Shown here: in pieces, positions 20,326 through 45,823 of the stretch | Layout: every line of letters begins with the position of its first letter | Position numbering within the stretch: position 1 is the stretch's first letter | NCBI RefSeq assembly: GCF_000429825.1 | Contig: NZ_AUCP01000023.1 | Coordinates: forward strand, 1 to 64,000 | DNA length: 64,000 nt | Origin: Cohnella thermotolerans DSM 17683 | Lineage (GTDB): Bacteria; Bacillota; Bacilli; Paenibacillales; Paenibacillaceae | Reading direction: 5' to 3' | Translations under genes and position numbers: made by a program | The notes under the pieces: generated by a model | What the model saw: only the letters and a program-made list of their open reading frames with translations | What the model was told of the DNA's origin: nothing | Database searches by the model: none

Positions 20326-20422
20326 GTCGGCTTTCCAGACGTTCGCTTCCTCTCCTTCGCGCCAAATGTGATATACTTATAGGCGGTTTATCCGAATGAC
20401 AATCGAAGAAGGTGAGAGCATC

Positions 20423-21322
20423 ATGGATGCGAAACAACCATACCGCGTTTTGCTTTTCTATAAATACGTCAACCTCCCCGATGCCGAGCAGTTCGCCAAG
20501 GACCACCTGGCCTATTGCAAAGAGCTCGGCGTCAAGGGCCGCATCCTCGTCGCGAACGAAGGGATCAACGGCACGCTGTCGGGCACGTACGAACAGACCG
20601 AAACGTACATGCGCGACCTTCGCGCCAATCCGTTGTTCGCGGATATCGTCTTTAAAATCGACGAAGCGGAAGGCCACGCGTTCAAGAAGATGTTCGTCCG
20701 GTACAAGAAGGAGCTCGTCACGCTGCGGTTCGACGAGGAAGAGCTCGATCCGAACGTCATCAGCGGCACCCGGCTCAGTCCGAAGCAGTTCCACGAATAT
20801 TTGCAGCGGGACGACGTGATCGTGCTCGACGGGCGCAACGGTTACGAATACGATCTCGGCCATTTCCGGGGCGCCATCCGTCCGGACGTGGATAGCTTCC
20901 GGGAATTCCCCGAGTGGATTCGCCAAAATATGAGCGAGCTTAAAGACAAACCGGTGCTGACGTATTGCACCGGCGGCATTCGCTGCGAGAAGTTGAGCGG
21001 ATTTCTGCTTCGGGAAGGCTTCAAGGAAGTGTACCAGCTGGATGGCGGCATCGTCACGTACGGCAAGGACGAGGAAGTCAAAGGCCGCTTGTTCGACGGC
21101 AAGTGCTACGTGTTCGACGAGCGCATCTCGGTGCGAATCAACCATACGGACGAGGACGTCGTCGTCGGGCGGTGCCATCACTGCGGCAAGCCGGCCGACC
21201 GCTACATCAACTGCGCCGACGACACCTGCCACCTGCAGCACATTTGCTGCGAAGAGTGCGAAGCGGAGCATGCCGGCTACTGCTCGGACAAATGCGCCGC
21301 GCACGACCGAATGGCCGGCTGA
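20423..21322 (+). CDS. trhO: tRNA uridine-34 hydroxylase TrhO (rhodanese-like)
   Basis: The protein has 299 aa and consists of an N-terminal acylphosphatase-like domain, a central rhodanese domain with the active-site loop TYCTGGIRCEK (Cys near residue 182), and a C-terminal Cys-rich zinc-like region (CHHCGK, then CEECEAEHAGYCSDKC). TrhO (formerly YceA, UPF0176) uses oxygen to make 5-hydroxyuridine at the wobble position of some tRNAs. The length matches the family. I chose the ATG at 20423 because GAAGGTGAG lies 8 bases upstream; the frame runs nine codons further. It is a single-gene unit followed by the 51-bp repeat array. Confidence 0.92.
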   Translation: MDAKQPYRVLLFYKYVNLPDAEQFAKDHLAYCKELGVKGRILVANEGINGTLSGTYEQTETYMRDLRANPLFADIVFKIDEAEGHAFKKMFVRYKKELVTLRFDEEELDPNVISGTRLSPKQFHEYLQRDDVIVLDGRNGYEYDLGHFRGAIRPDVDSFREFPEWIRQNMSELKDKPVLTYCTGGIRCEKLSGFLLREGFKEVYQLDGGIVTYGKDEEVKGRLFDGKCYVFDERISVRINHTDEDVVVGRCHHCGKPADRYINCADDTCHLQHICCEECEAEHAGYCSDKCAAHDRMAG

Positions 21323-21401
21323 GGGCAAGCTTGCGGGGCTAAGAAGCTGTGCGGAGAATGCTCCATCGACCGGATGCGAGCCAACAAACCGCACACACAC
21401 G

Positions 21402-21685
21402 AAAGAGGCTCAAAGATTGAGCCTCTTTCGCTATTTTCGCCGTATACGCTCCAAAGAGGCTCAAAGATTGAGCTTCTTTGGCCATTTCCGCCGTATACGC
21501 TCCAAAGAGGCTCAAAGATTGAGCTTCTTTGGCCATTTCCGCCATATACGCTCCAAAGAGGCTCAAATATTGAGCCTCTTTCGCTATTTTCGCCGCATAC
21601 GCTCCAAAGAGGCTCAAAGATTGAGCTTCTTTGGCCATTTCCGCCGTATACGCTCCAAAGAGGCTCAACGGCTGAGCCTCCTCGG
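21402..21685. repeat. 51-bp tandem hairpin array, six copies (array 1)
   Basis: Units start at 21402, 21453, 21504, 21555, 21606 and 21657, always 51 bp apart. Each opens with an inverted repeat of arms AAAGAGGCTCAA and TTGAGCCTCTTT around three bases, then a 24-bp spacer ending CGCTCC. Copies 1 and 4 have perfect 12-bp arms. Copies 2, 3 and 5 carry TTGAGCTTCTTT and a different spacer start (GGCCATTTCC). Copies 2 and 5 are identical, and copy 6 is diverged. The array lies between the convergent genes trhO and the 117-aa coiled-coil gene. Since 51 is a multiple of three, frames stay open in both directions, but no start signals are present. Confidence 0.95.
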
Positions 21686-21814
21686 TGCATTCCAAGCCAA
21701 GCCTCTCCTGGCCGGCACACGCCCCCGAATTCCAGCAGCAAGCTGCCCGGCGAGACGGATCGTTATCAGTTGGATATCCAAATTTTTACAAATGAGCCGA
21801 ACCCGGCTTCGTAC

Positions 21815-34661: not shown

Positions 34662-34842
34662 ATAAAAAAGACCCTTCGCTTGAGAAAGGGTCGTCGTCGG
34701 AACTCGTACGCGCGCCTCTCTCATCTCTCGGAAACGCGGCAACCGCCGCGCATCCAGCAAGAATTAGCACCGTGCGTTCGCAGCGAACGCCGGTTGCCGG
34801 GCTTCATCGGGCTAGTCCCTCCGCCTGCTCTTGATAAGATGG
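34662..34842 (-). promoter_or_regulatory. SAM-I (S-box) riboswitch upstream of metA
   Basis: On the minus strand the 5' core reads CTTATCAAGAGCAGGCGGAG, then GGGACTAGCCCGATGAAGCC and CGGCAACC, then GGTGCTAATTC, all hallmark S-box elements. The expression platform is the terminator stem GACCCTTTCTC / CGAAGGGTC with a T-run (34663-34690). It ends 47 bases before the metA start. Confidence 0.96.
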
Positions 34843-43166: not shown

Positions 43167-44141
43167 TCAAACCTTCTGCGCGTCAAGCCCGGGCGGAAGC
43201 TCGGACAGCCTGGCCTCCAGCGTCTGCAGGTCTTGCGGCAGCCCGGCCTCGAGCTCCATCGGCGCGTTCGTCACCGGATGGCGGAACGCGAGCATGGACG
43301 CGTGCAGCGCCTGCCGGCCGATCGCTCCCTCGAGCGCGCGGGCGAGCTCGGTCCGCTCCCAGGCCGGATCGGCGTAATAGGCGTCGCCGATGAGCGGACA
43401 GCCGACGGAGCTGAGATGAACGCGAATCTGGTGCGTCCGTCCCGTGCCGAGGCGGACGTCCAGCGCCGTCGCCCCGCATGGGTAGCTCGCGGCGACCCGG
43501 TAGTACGTCAGGGAAGGGGCGCCGTCCTCGCGCACCGCCCGGCGGTGCGGGTCTTCGGGCACGCGGCCGATCGGTGCGTTCACTTCTCCTTCTTCAGCCG
43601 GCGGGCGGTCGAAGACGTAAGCGCGATATTGCTTGGTTACCTCGTCCTTCGCCATCTGCTCGGACAACTGCTGGTGAGCGTAAGGATGCTTGGCGACGAT
43701 GACGAGGCCGGACGTATCCTCGTCCAACCGGTGAACCGGACGGAACCGGCGGCGCTCGCCCTTCTCCAGCCAGTAATGGACGACCCCGTTCGCGAGCGTG
43801 TTCAAATAATGCCCGGTCGTCGGATGGACAATGATGCCGGCGGGCTTGTTCAGCACGAGAAGATGCTCGTCTTCGAATACGATGTCGAGCGCCATCGGTT
43901 GCGGATAAATGTCCTCGGACGTCTCCCGCTCCATGCGGAACTCGACGACGTCGCCCGCCGCGAGCCTGTAGCTCGGGAAGGCTTTCTCCCCGTTCACCGC
44001 AAGCCCTTCCTCCGACTGCTTCAGCCGGACGAACAGCCGCCTGGAGACGCCCAGCCGGTCGCGCAGCACGTCCCGCAGCATGCGGCCTTCGTCCCGTTCG
44101 TCCGCCACATGCACGACCGGCTCGTAATAGCCGTCGCTCAT
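43167..44141 (-). CDS. RluA-family pseudouridine synthase
   Basis: The enzyme has 324 aa. An N-terminal S4-like RNA-binding segment (LRDVLRDRLGVSRRLFVRLK) precedes the RluA catalytic domain, with the active-site Asp in HRLDEDTSGLVIVAK (about residue 138). Other family motifs are VLNKPAGIIVHP and GRTHQIRVHLSSVGCPLIGD. It isomerises uridine to pseudouridine in rRNA or tRNA (RluD-like). Its ATG overlaps the TGA of the pduO-type gene (ATGA), so translation is coupled. The exact target base is not clear. Confidence 0.93.
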   Translation of the reverse strand: MSDGYYEPVVHVADERDEGRMLRDVLRDRLGVSRRLFVRLKQSEEGLAVNGEKAFPSYRLAAGDVVEFRMERETSEDIYPQPMALDIVFEDEHLLVLNKPAGIIVHPTTGHYLNTLANGVVHYWLEKGERRRFRPVHRLDEDTSGLVIVAKHPYAHQQLSEQMAKDEVTKQYRAYVFDRPPAEEGEVNAPIGRVPEDPHRRAVREDGAPSLTYYRVAASYPCGATALDVRLGTGRTHQIRVHLSSVGCPLIGDAYYADPAWERTELARALEGAIGRQALHASMLAFRHPVTNAPMELEAGLPQDLQTLEARLSELPPGLDAQKV

Positions 44142-44728
44142 TCCGCTTGCGGCCTCCGTCCGAACACGCGGGCGCCGCGTTCGTATTCCGTGTCCGCGAC
44201 GCCCGCCAGAACGTTCGCTGTCCGCGCCGCCGCGAAGAAATAGTCGGACAGCCGGTTGACGTAGCGCAGCACTTCTTCGGGACAGGGCTGGCCCGAATCG
44301 GCGAGCGTCACGATCCGGCGCTCCGCCCGGCGGCAGACGGTCCGGCACACGTGCAGCCGGGCGGCGGGCTCGCTCCCGCCGGGAAGGATAAAGCGCTCGA
44401 TCGGCGGCAGCGACGCCTGATGGCGGTCGATCCACGCCTCCAGCCGCGCCGTCATGTCCGCCGACACTTTCAATTGCGACGCCTCGGGATTCGCGTACGA
44501 CAAATCCGAGCCGCAGTCGAACAGCTCCTGCTGAATGACGCCAAGCTCCTCCAGCAGACCGTCCCAGGCGGCGTCCTTCGCGTCCGCCATCCAGACCGCC
44601 GCCAGGCCGACATATGCGTTCAGCTCGTCGATCGCGCCGTACGCTTCGACTCTGGCGTCGTTCTTGGATACGCGTCCCCCGATGACCGAAGTGCGGCCCT
44701 GATCTCCGGTTCGGGTATATAGTTTCAT
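44138..44728 (-). CDS. PduO-type ATP:cob(I)alamin adenosyltransferase
   Basis: The enzyme has 196 aa. N-terminal YTRTGDQGRTSVIGG (residues 4-18) is the ATP loop. RRAERRIVTL and YVNRLSDYFFAAAR are the other conserved motifs. It adds the adenosyl group to cob(I)alamin to make coenzyme B12. I chose the ATG at 44728 with GGAGG 11 bases upstream. The 51-bp repeat array ends only 31 bases before this start. The cobU-like gene lies beyond the array on the same strand, and the two share a pathway. The gene overlaps the RluA-type gene by 4 bp. Confidence 0.93.
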   Translation of the reverse strand: MKLYTRTGDQGRTSVIGGRVSKNDARVEAYGAIDELNAYVGLAAVWMADAKDAAWDGLLEELGVIQQELFDCGSDLSYANPEASQLKVSADMTARLEAWIDRHQASLPPIERFILPGGSEPAARLHVCRTVCRRAERRIVTLADSGQPCPEEVLRYVNRLSDYFFAAARTANVLAGVADTEYERGARVFGRRPQAE

Positions 44729-44759
44729 CGTCGTTTGTCCTCCGTTTCGTAGTTCCGCC

Positions 44760-45254
44760 AATGTGGCTCTAATCTTGAGGTTCTTTCGCGCATACCACCG
44801 CATTCTCGCTAATGTGGCTCAAATCTTGAGACTCTTTCGCCTACCACACCGCATTCCCGCTAATGTAGCTCAAATCTTGAGACTCTTTCGTCCACCACAC
44901 CGCATTCTCGCTAATGTGGCTCAAATCTTGAGCTTCTTTCTCCCACCGCACCGCGTTCCCGCTAATGTAGCTCAAATCTTGAGACTCTTTCGCCTACCAC
45001 ACCGCGTTCCCGCCAATGTAGCTCAAATCTTGAGCTTCTTTCTCCCGCCGCACCGCGTTCCCGCCAATGTAGCTCAATTCTTGAGCCTCTTTCGCCTACC
45101 ACACCGGATTCCCGCTAATGTGGCTCAATTCTTGAGCCTCTTTCGCGCATACCGCCGGATTCCCGCTAATGTGGCTCAATTCTTGAGCCTCTTTCGCGCA
45201 TACCGCCGGATTCCCGCCGATGCAGCTCAATTCTTGAGCTTCTTCCGCGGGCTC
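44760..45254. repeat. 51-bp tandem hairpin array, ten copies (array 2)
   Basis: Units start at 44760, 44811, 44862, 44913, 44964, 45015, 45066, 45117, 45168 and 45219, always 51 bp apart. The consensus opens AATGTGGCTCAAATCTTGAG, then CTCTTTCGC and a 21-bp spacer ending TTCCCGCT. The hairpin is GCTCAA / TTGAGC around ATC or TTC. Copies 4 and 6 belong to a CTTCTTTCTCC subtype, the others to CTCTTTCGC. Copies 8 and 9 differ at one base. Copy 10 runs into the 3' end of the cobU-like gene and contains its stop codon. The array fills the gap between the cobU-like and pduO-type genes. It is related to array 1 at 21402. Confidence 0.96.
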
Positions 45255-45823
45255 TTCAGCTCCGTCGCGACGCCGGCGACGAGATGATGCAAGCCGTCGC
45301 ACGCGTCGGAGAGCCTCCGGTTCGCGCCGGACAGCTCCCGCAAATACCAACGCTCCCAAGGGTCGCGGGCGAGCCCCCCGGGCGTATCCTCCGTGACGAC
45401 GAGCAGCCGCCCCTCGAAGCCCAGCAGCGCGCCTACCACCTCGCGCAAAGCCGCTTCGAGCTTCGCCGTGCGCAGCCGGAACGTCTCCTCCGTCTCCTCC
45501 GGCGAAACGCTCCGGATCTCTTCGACCGCCTGTCTCAGCCAGCCCGACAAGCTGTCCACGATCACGACTCTATCGCTCGCCCGGAACGGATTGGACAGCA
45601 GATTGATGCGGTTCAGCCGCTCCGCCAGCGCACGATCCGCGGGCAACAGCGTCCGCCGTCCCCTGTTTGCGCTCCCGGCGGCTTCCCCTTCTTCGCCGGC
45701 ACCGCAAGCTCCGGGCCAGGGGGGACAAGCCAGCTTAATCGCCTCCCGGCCATGGGCGGCGGCCCACGCTTCAGCGAAAGCCGATTTCCCGCTGCCGATG
45801 CCGCCGGTGACGATCCAGAGCAT
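45227..45823 (-). CDS. CobU-like adenosylcobinamide kinase/guanylyltransferase
   Basis: The protein has 198 aa. A P-loop (TGGIGSGKSAFAE, residues 6-18) opens a CobU/CobP-like fold. The C-terminus keeps the family pattern RELSGANRRLSDACDGLHHLVAGV. CobU phosphorylates adenosylcobinamide and then adds GMP in nucleotide-loop assembly. The conserved His region after the P-loop is weak and the middle is Gly/Ala-rich (GACGAGEEGEAAGSANRGR), so activity is less sure than the family. Its last codons and stop come from the tenth unit of the repeat array. The ribosome site (GGAGGG) lies a few bases before the ATG. Confidence 0.8.
   Translation of the reverse strand: MLWIVTGGIGSGKSAFAEAWAAAHGREAIKLACPPWPGACGAGEEGEAAGSANRGRRTLLPADRALAERLNRINLLSNPFRASDRVVIVDSLSGWLRQAVEEIRSVSPEETEETFRLRTAKLEAALREVVGALLGFEGRLLVVTEDTPGGLARDPWERWYLRELSGANRRLSDACDGLHHLVAGVATELKSPRKKLKN

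Follow-up and report, generated by a model that had tools for sequence, protein, structure and literature searches.

A ten-unit palindromic array in the cobU–pduO spacer of Cohnella thermotolerans belongs to a dispersed intergenic repeat family with a 51 bp pitch

Introduction

The spacer between a cobU-like gene and a PduO-type gene of Cohnella thermotolerans DSM 17683 is filled by an array of ten palindromic units, and this array is one of many at unrelated intergenic places in the same genome and in other Cohnella genomes. The units were observed to share a dyad, recurring flanks and a 51 bp pitch, to be dispersed, to be constrained in the dyad and to have been inserted at the operon junction. 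We tentatively favour, with a confidence somewhat short of even, an explanation in which the array represents one member of a REP/BIME-like dispersed intergenic repeat of Cohnella which acts as DNA, with its dyads five helical turns apart. The array was analysed within the first 64 000 nucleotides (forward strand) of contig NZ_AUCP01000023.1, assembly GCF_000429825.1, referred to as the window. A preliminary description of the spacer had remarked on how nearly 51 bp corresponds to five turns of DNA, and this remark proved the key lead.

The array and its insertion at the cobU–pduO junction

The array lies at 44755..45249 on the minus strand, where it was identified by TRF, from the printed units and with a covariance model. 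TRF gave a period of 51 bp, 9.7 copies and a score of 537, and also scored the array with periods of 102 and 153 bp. The covariance-model search returned ten 35 bp hairpins on the minus strand in exact 51 bp steps, from 44756–44790 to 45215–45249 (starting at 44756, 44807, 44858, 44909, 44960, 45011, 45062, 45113, 45164 and 45215), which confirms the earlier account of ten palindromic units filling the spacer at this exact step. On the minus strand the unit reads AAAGAG–palindrome–YWCATT. The arms GCTCAA/TTGAGC, previously ascribed to every unit, are exact in six of the ten; three more units carry one mismatch, and the unit adjoining pduO has the arms GCTCTA/TTGAGG. All 51 bp agree between the units that start at 45112 and 45163, so the recent duplication suggested before for copies 8 and 9 stands.

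The cobU-like gene (cobinamide kinase/guanylyltransferase; PF02283, E = 7.5e-13) was located as an ORF at 45227..45823 on the minus strand, and the PduO-type cobalamin adenosyltransferase (ORF and gene call; PF01923, E = 1.6e-59) at 44138..44728 on the same strand. The cobU-like ORF ends at 45227 within the last unit of the array, with its TGA lying in TTGAGC, so that this unit does supply the last codons and stop, as had been noted. Comparison with the junctions of C. xylanilytica and Cohnella sp. OV330 showed these last codons and the TGA to come from what is, in the direction of the gene, the first hairpin of the array. The likely pduO start is the ATG at 44728, 26 bp from the nearest unit. 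No Rfam family matched the array at the gathering score when the whole window was searched. A SAM riboswitch (RF00162) at 34718–34840 on the minus strand was the sole match in the window at that score.

Since 51 is 3 × 17, the array might encode a 17-residue protein repeat. Long open frames do cross it, for example one of 174 amino acids on the plus strand, but the latter has no Pfam match, the aligned KEAQ-like frame contains TAG/TAA stops both here and in locus L032, and arrays of 52 bp break the frame. With the in-frame stops and the 52 bp arrays, this reading, whose probability we put close to nil, was rejected.

With cobU–array–pduO as the query, 21 congeners matched on both flanks, and in all 21 the junction is without the array. 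The missing length is 446–521 bp, and exactly 494 bp in six congeners; some cobU matches are short, so the length of cobU accounts for some of the scatter. The two genes overlap in C. xylanilytica, and about 17 bp separate them in OV330; such tight array-free junctions in relatives indicate that the array was added at the junction within the operon and that little or nothing was lost in the process. No clear target duplication was visible by eye when the junction was compared with those of C. xylanilytica and OV330. The array would mainly separate formerly overlapping or adjacent genes and give cobU a new end, and the B12 enzymes would be affected, if at all, only secondarily.

Dispersal within the C. 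thermotolerans genome

A second array, of six hairpins in 51 bp steps, was found at 21398..21687 on the plus strand (TRF, printed units and covariance model). It lies between convergent genes, faced by the 3′ end of a UPF0176/rhodanese gene (20396..21322, plus strand, gene call). GCTCAA-N3-TTGAGC is present in five of its six units, and its linker differs from that of the cobU–pduO array. When the cobU–pduO spacer was used as a DNA query against the whole genome (G000; 5.05 Mb, 138 contigs), 19 matches on 11 contigs were obtained; the palindrome is thus carried by at least 11 contigs and not by this locus only. The genome holds 44 core pairs, 42 of them exactly 51 bp apart where 36 to 66 bp was allowed, and the reversed control pattern gave no match in it, which excludes chance. 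The arrays keep register and have the palindrome in common, while most have their own linker, alike within each array. Runs of N occur inside several arrays, so that copy numbers are lower bounds. Arrays of 51 bp with other cores (TGTAAG..CTTACA and AAGATCGATTTTCGATCTT) were also present at C1:141299–141428 and at L030 2639–2782, and several core types therefore occur in one genome.

The preliminary description had linked a neutral tandem duplication to decaying arms at a single locus. Neutral local duplication would account for the two identical units and the recent event that they record, but the many loci, the dyads, which are conserved rather than decaying, and the pitch held across species already refute it as the whole story, and we regard it as very improbable.

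Two further observations concern the surroundings of individual units. Loci L025, L027 and L030 (contigs C1 and C6) are alike (blastn, 84–93% identity) not only in the array but also over several hundred bp beside it, where GGGACAGCCC motifs occur, and the arrays look as if they ride in a larger non-autonomous element. At C5:67426–67460 (L029) a lone unit is followed by a short T run, in the manner of an intrinsic terminator; such a unit is a possible origin of the array family.

Pitch and core turnover in other Cohnella genomes

In a named scan of genome contigs the chief kin of the arrays were in C. xylanilytica DSM 25239, at the same places as the matches in G006 of the genus search. The core there is CTCAG-N3-CTGAG, and of 24 pairs 22 are 51 bp and two 50 bp apart. 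Cohnella sp. OV330, with one stretch in the scan, proved on closer inspection to hold a real 51 bp array. G019 has GAATGCTCA-N5-TGAGCATTC pairs at 51 or 52 bp. G021 and G026, whose arrays surfaced through matches of the reversed control pattern in the genus search, have outer flanks of the window type around GAGTC-N3-GACTC, with 10 of 11 pairs at 51 bp. Units of GTATG and GAGTC type were found in one array and one 51 bp register (L131 and L135), and several core types coexist within each of G026, G006, G019, G021 and G000. Over five genomes, with spacings of 30–75 bp allowed, 92 adjacent core pairs were separated by 51 bp (84 pairs), 52 bp (four), 50 bp (three) or 59 bp (one).

A covariance model was constructed from 26 array consensuses. 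It gave matches at E ≤ 0.01 in 12 of 37 congeners, own genome included, and none in the other 25. Both strands were counted and at most 150 candidates per genome were scored; on this basis there were 143 matches in G000, 96 in G026, 86 in G021, 76 in G006, 72 in G035, 53 in G014, 47 in G008, 24 in G001, ten in G003, nine in G019, four in G033 and one in G002. G009 is negative with the model, yet it matches the array part of the cobU–pduO spacer at 65–66%, and the equally negative G012, G016, G032 and G036 contain 51 bp arrays of other kinds. Separately, intergenic repeats of 43–48 bp with no clear palindrome were seen in G026 at L158 13758–14231 and L164 1–557 (contigs C2 and C529).

Architecture and constraint of the unit

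The unit consists of a 27 bp dyad (half-site AAWGWR, an inner arm of 5–6 bp and a 3 bp centre) followed by a linker of about 24 bp. The 26 aligned consensuses came from five genomes (G000, G006, G021, G026 and G008) and were drawn from 59 arrays, of which 27 passed the flank filter and one, L030, was dropped as identical to L025; the arrays outside the alignment had no AAWGWR-type flanks, had a centre of even length, contained Ns or came from family f7. Inner pairs 12–24, 13–23 and 14–22 are complementary in all 26 consensuses, with seven, seven and nine double changes, respectively, and covariation is 0.776 against 0.180 after shuffling; the hairpin centres were set by best pairing, which favours pairing by construction. 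The outer pairs 7–29 and 9–27 are unpaired in 19 and 15 of the 26 consensuses, although the flank sequence recurs. This mismatch arises mostly because one foot is AAAGAG and the other AATGTA: among the feet of 90 units, 39 are mixed in this way and 14 are equal. From the alignment, the flanks look to be kept as sequence and not as stem, and the centre as symmetry.

Interior units, which were picked out through the similarity of their cores, differ per site by 0.071 in the dyad and by 0.198 in the linker. This way of recognising them biases the centre towards low values, but most flank positions outside the core are also low. The linker is the more variable in 21 of 24 arrays and the less variable in two (p = 8e-5). 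In L225 and in the first array of L228, both from f7, the hairpin varies as much as the linker or more. Linkers show 193 substitutions and five length changes, and are at best mildly short of indels. The linker is freer in sequence and nearly fixed in length, which places the centres 51 bp apart. The pitch is retained in many Cohnella species while the sequence changes, and this speaks less for a switch of cobU and pduO than for something that would act on the spacing of the DNA. Periods of four or six helical turns were not clearly seen among the arrays, and helical phase alone therefore does not explain 51 bp.

Position relative to genes and the level of action

In an RNA reading, first put forward in the preliminary description, the transcribed units would form a ladder of hairpins that protects, cuts or paces the cobU–pduO message and sets the ratio of the two cobalamin proteins. 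The two genes beside the spacer do point the same way and belong to one pathway, and none of 100 shuffled sequences folds as well as the spacer RNA (z = −4.4), a result to be expected of hairpin arrays. Against this proposal stand the empty junction in all 21 congeners and the presence of the family at many unrelated intergenic places; both terminator-like matches inside the cobU–pduO array are, moreover, on the antisense strand.

A stem kept as RNA should tolerate G·U but not A·C. In the inner arms of co-directional arrays 12 G·T and 11 A·C mismatches were counted. Over whole stems there were 71 G·T and 54 A·C (p = 0.15), a slight excess that leaves a weak RNA effect possible. At the loop-adjacent pair the counts were 32 and six, respectively, which we read as the fixed sequence CTCAG-N3-TTGAG, inseparable here from RNA tolerance. 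The polarity of the arrays relative to transcription was likewise without clear bias (eight sense, 11 antisense, five symmetric).

Gene positions were taken from a home-made codon-usage finder. Among arrays of 49–54 bp, 57 of 59 lie between called genes, and the remaining two (L135 and L184) overlap weakly scored ORFs. Both neighbours were called for 50 arrays: 32 arrays are between co-directional, 14 between convergent and four between divergent genes. Divergent genes flank 74 of 341 background spacers of at least 100 bp, so that arrays are under-represented there (p = 0.02). This rarity would agree with an RNA ladder, but the 14 arrays between convergent genes speak against it, and all in all we consider the RNA reading unlikely. 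A terminator was found between gene end and array at 12 of 65 facing 3′ ends (home-made scan), and the median distance of arrays was 120 bp to 3′ ends and 195 bp to 5′ ends (p = 0.09); neither result decides on a role as terminator.

Census of tandem arrays within and beyond Cohnella

Ten further Cohnella genomes, without matches to the earlier core patterns and otherwise chosen blindly, were sampled over 313 kb in all, and five arrays with periods of 51 or 52 bp were found in five of them. Periods of 51–52 bp made up 4/5 of the intergenic TRF arrays of 25–120 bp in the G000 stretch and 6/14 in that of G026 (both not blind, as they included contigs already known to hold arrays), 4/9 in other Cohnella, 2/2 in the window, 6/9 in family f7 of the same order (first stretches blind, further ones chosen after arrays had been seen in two f7 genomes) and 0/1 in other families (224 kb). 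Among the f7 arrays, which are without the Cohnella flanks, one has 14.6 copies of a 52 bp unit around TAACCGGAGTTTCTCCGGTTA and another 12.9 copies of a 51 bp unit around TAAGCGCGAATTCGCGCTTA. Of the 22 intergenic arrays of 50–53 bp, 11 had a consensus palindrome with p ≤ 0.05, as against four of 17 at other periods and one of 18 in genes; by this strict score about half of the 50–53 bp arrays in the census, and not all, are clearly palindromic.

A scan of genome contigs at a fixed 51 bp spacing, which carries no information on preferred pitch outside Cohnella, yielded 27 stretches: 12 from Cohnella (11 C. xylanilytica, one OV330) and 15 others. According to TRF, seven of the 15 are real 51 bp arrays, and in six TRF listed no array; the remaining two were seen from the printed sequence to be short-period repeats. 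Four of the seven real arrays are in one Deltaproteobacteria MAG, and one each in Spirulina, Anaerobiospirillum and Aenigmatarchaeota (single arrays at L079, L090 and L093, respectively). The array form is therefore not confined to the order of Cohnella. Loci L087, L094, L101 and L103 of the MAG (GMC8.metabat2.102) make up a dispersed 51 bp family that has palindromes of its own (GGTTGA..TCAACC, CCCTATATGGG).

Discussion

In the explanation that we favour, each dyad is a predicted site for a dimeric DNA-binding protein. A spacing of five helical turns (51–52.5 bp) would place all sites on one face of the DNA, where the protein could bind side by side or bridge DNA segments. Species with other inner arms would have a protein of shifted specificity. 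The units would spread by transposition or a copying step and then multiply locally in tandem.

Chief among the rivals is a copying enzyme that has a 51 bp ruler. A copying machine (a transposase, template switching at hairpins or slippage with a fixed footprint) would tandem-copy any palindrome at 51–52 bp; the pitch would be a property of the enzyme and the arrays would have no host function. Unrelated cores and linkers share the pitch, the f7 family has it too, and the common flank of L025, L027 and L030 suggests that arrays are copied as blocks. The greater conservation of hairpins than of linkers in most arrays is, however, unexpected from copying alone, no candidate enzyme was found, and differing cores are joined in register, though joining at the common flank CTACAT could explain this. 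We judge the ruler possible but rather unlikely. Both readings explain a pitch that outlives the sequence. Hairpin conservation and mixing in register favour protein sites, whereas several cores per genome favour the ruler, since a single protein of given sequence specificity would not suit them all. Template-switch correction of quasi-palindromes can uphold dyads without function, and the upkeep of the dyads here could be of this functionless kind.

It is also possible, and in our estimate closer to one chance in three than to one in two, that the arrays follow a geometric rule and not a sequence, being read for symmetry and spacing by a machine present in at least two families of the order. 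Candidates would be a bridging or filament-forming family of nucleoid proteins of changing specificity, or the copying enzyme just described.

Sequence is the usual basis for defining dispersed palindromic repeats; in the present arrays it turns over, in two families, while length and symmetry persist. Whether REP-like arrays are protein-read DNA or copying debris is an old question, which these arrays make directly testable. The arrays seem to break draft assemblies, as judged from the N runs inside several of them, and could serve as strain markers.

Comparison with known systems

A search of plasmids gave no match, and a plasmid origin was rejected. Among the matches listed in a literature search there was no description of 51–52 bp arrays in Cohnella or Paenibacillus. 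The words Paenibacillus and Firmicutes do not occur in one REP paper (PMC3733652).

REPs are described in the accessible parts of two papers as short extragenic palindromes in many copies, some in ordered tandem arrays, which lie mostly between co-directional or convergent genes (PMC3733652; PMC3116915). As far as these excerpts go, the Cohnella arrays resemble REP, BIME and REPIN sequences in size (their palindrome falls within 20–40 bp), extragenic position, copy number and tandem reiteration. They differ in keeping a 51 bp pitch over unrelated cores, in inner arms that are replaced between species and in flanks that are conserved but often unpaired. Of the unpaired GTAG or CGTC tag that marks one end of a REP, the GTAG form is partly represented: it stands at exactly one foot in 14 of 26 consensuses and at both feet in none, the rest having GAGG, GTGG, GCGG and others.

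A REP/REPIN population mobilised by a RAYT, as in Pseudomonas, would agree with the small extragenic palindromes, their many copies, local tandem reiteration and mostly co-directional or convergent spacers, as REPs are portrayed in the excerpt (PMC3733652), and with the one-sided GTAG foot; on contig C63, too, some 1.7 kb, including a run of N, separate a unit from a partial Y1 match. In a genus-wide search with PF01797, however, Y1_Tnp matched 12 of 37 genomes, namely five of the 12 with units and seven of the 25 without. Unlike the genomes of RAYT-mobilised REPs, seven of the 12 unit-bearing Cohnella genomes lack a Y1_Tnp match, including G006, G014 and G008 with 76, 53 and 47 model matches (at most 150 candidates scored per genome), and no unit was present in the fetched stretches of three Y1 loci of the C. 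thermotolerans genome (L044–L046). As the distribution of Y1_Tnp does not follow that of the units, mobilisation by a RAYT does not drive the family in general, and we think it improbable as an explanation. At one of these loci (L044 1277–1448) two 88 bp copies with GGCTAAAGCC-type palindromes adjoin the Y1_Tnp gene and are possibly a separate IS200/REP-like element.

The arrays share with CRISPR regular palindrome-bearing repeats, but in place of unique spacers they have linkers that recur within each array. Generic bacterial minisatellites and VNTRs likewise consist of tandem intergenic copies, some recently duplicated; the present arrays differ from them in that one period, 51–52 bp, predominates among unrelated sequences.

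MIRU units measure 46–101 bp and stand in tandem between operon genes, their ends overlapping stop and start codons. A dyad joined to a linker of free sequence is not known to us from MIRU. The cobU–pduO array is similar in that tandem 51 bp units lie inside an operon and one of them supplies the upstream stop codon, that of cobU. It differs in belonging to a family that is also found between convergent genes (14/50), with other-core families that keep the pitch. A pitch independent of sequence is not described for REP or MIRU in the available portions of three papers (PMC3733652, PMC3116915 and PMC4213456). By analogy, the senX3–regX3 spacer, which according to the accessible part of its description carries MIRUs of 77 and 53 bp (PMC4213456), appears to be the best structural parallel for an array in a spacer within an operon.
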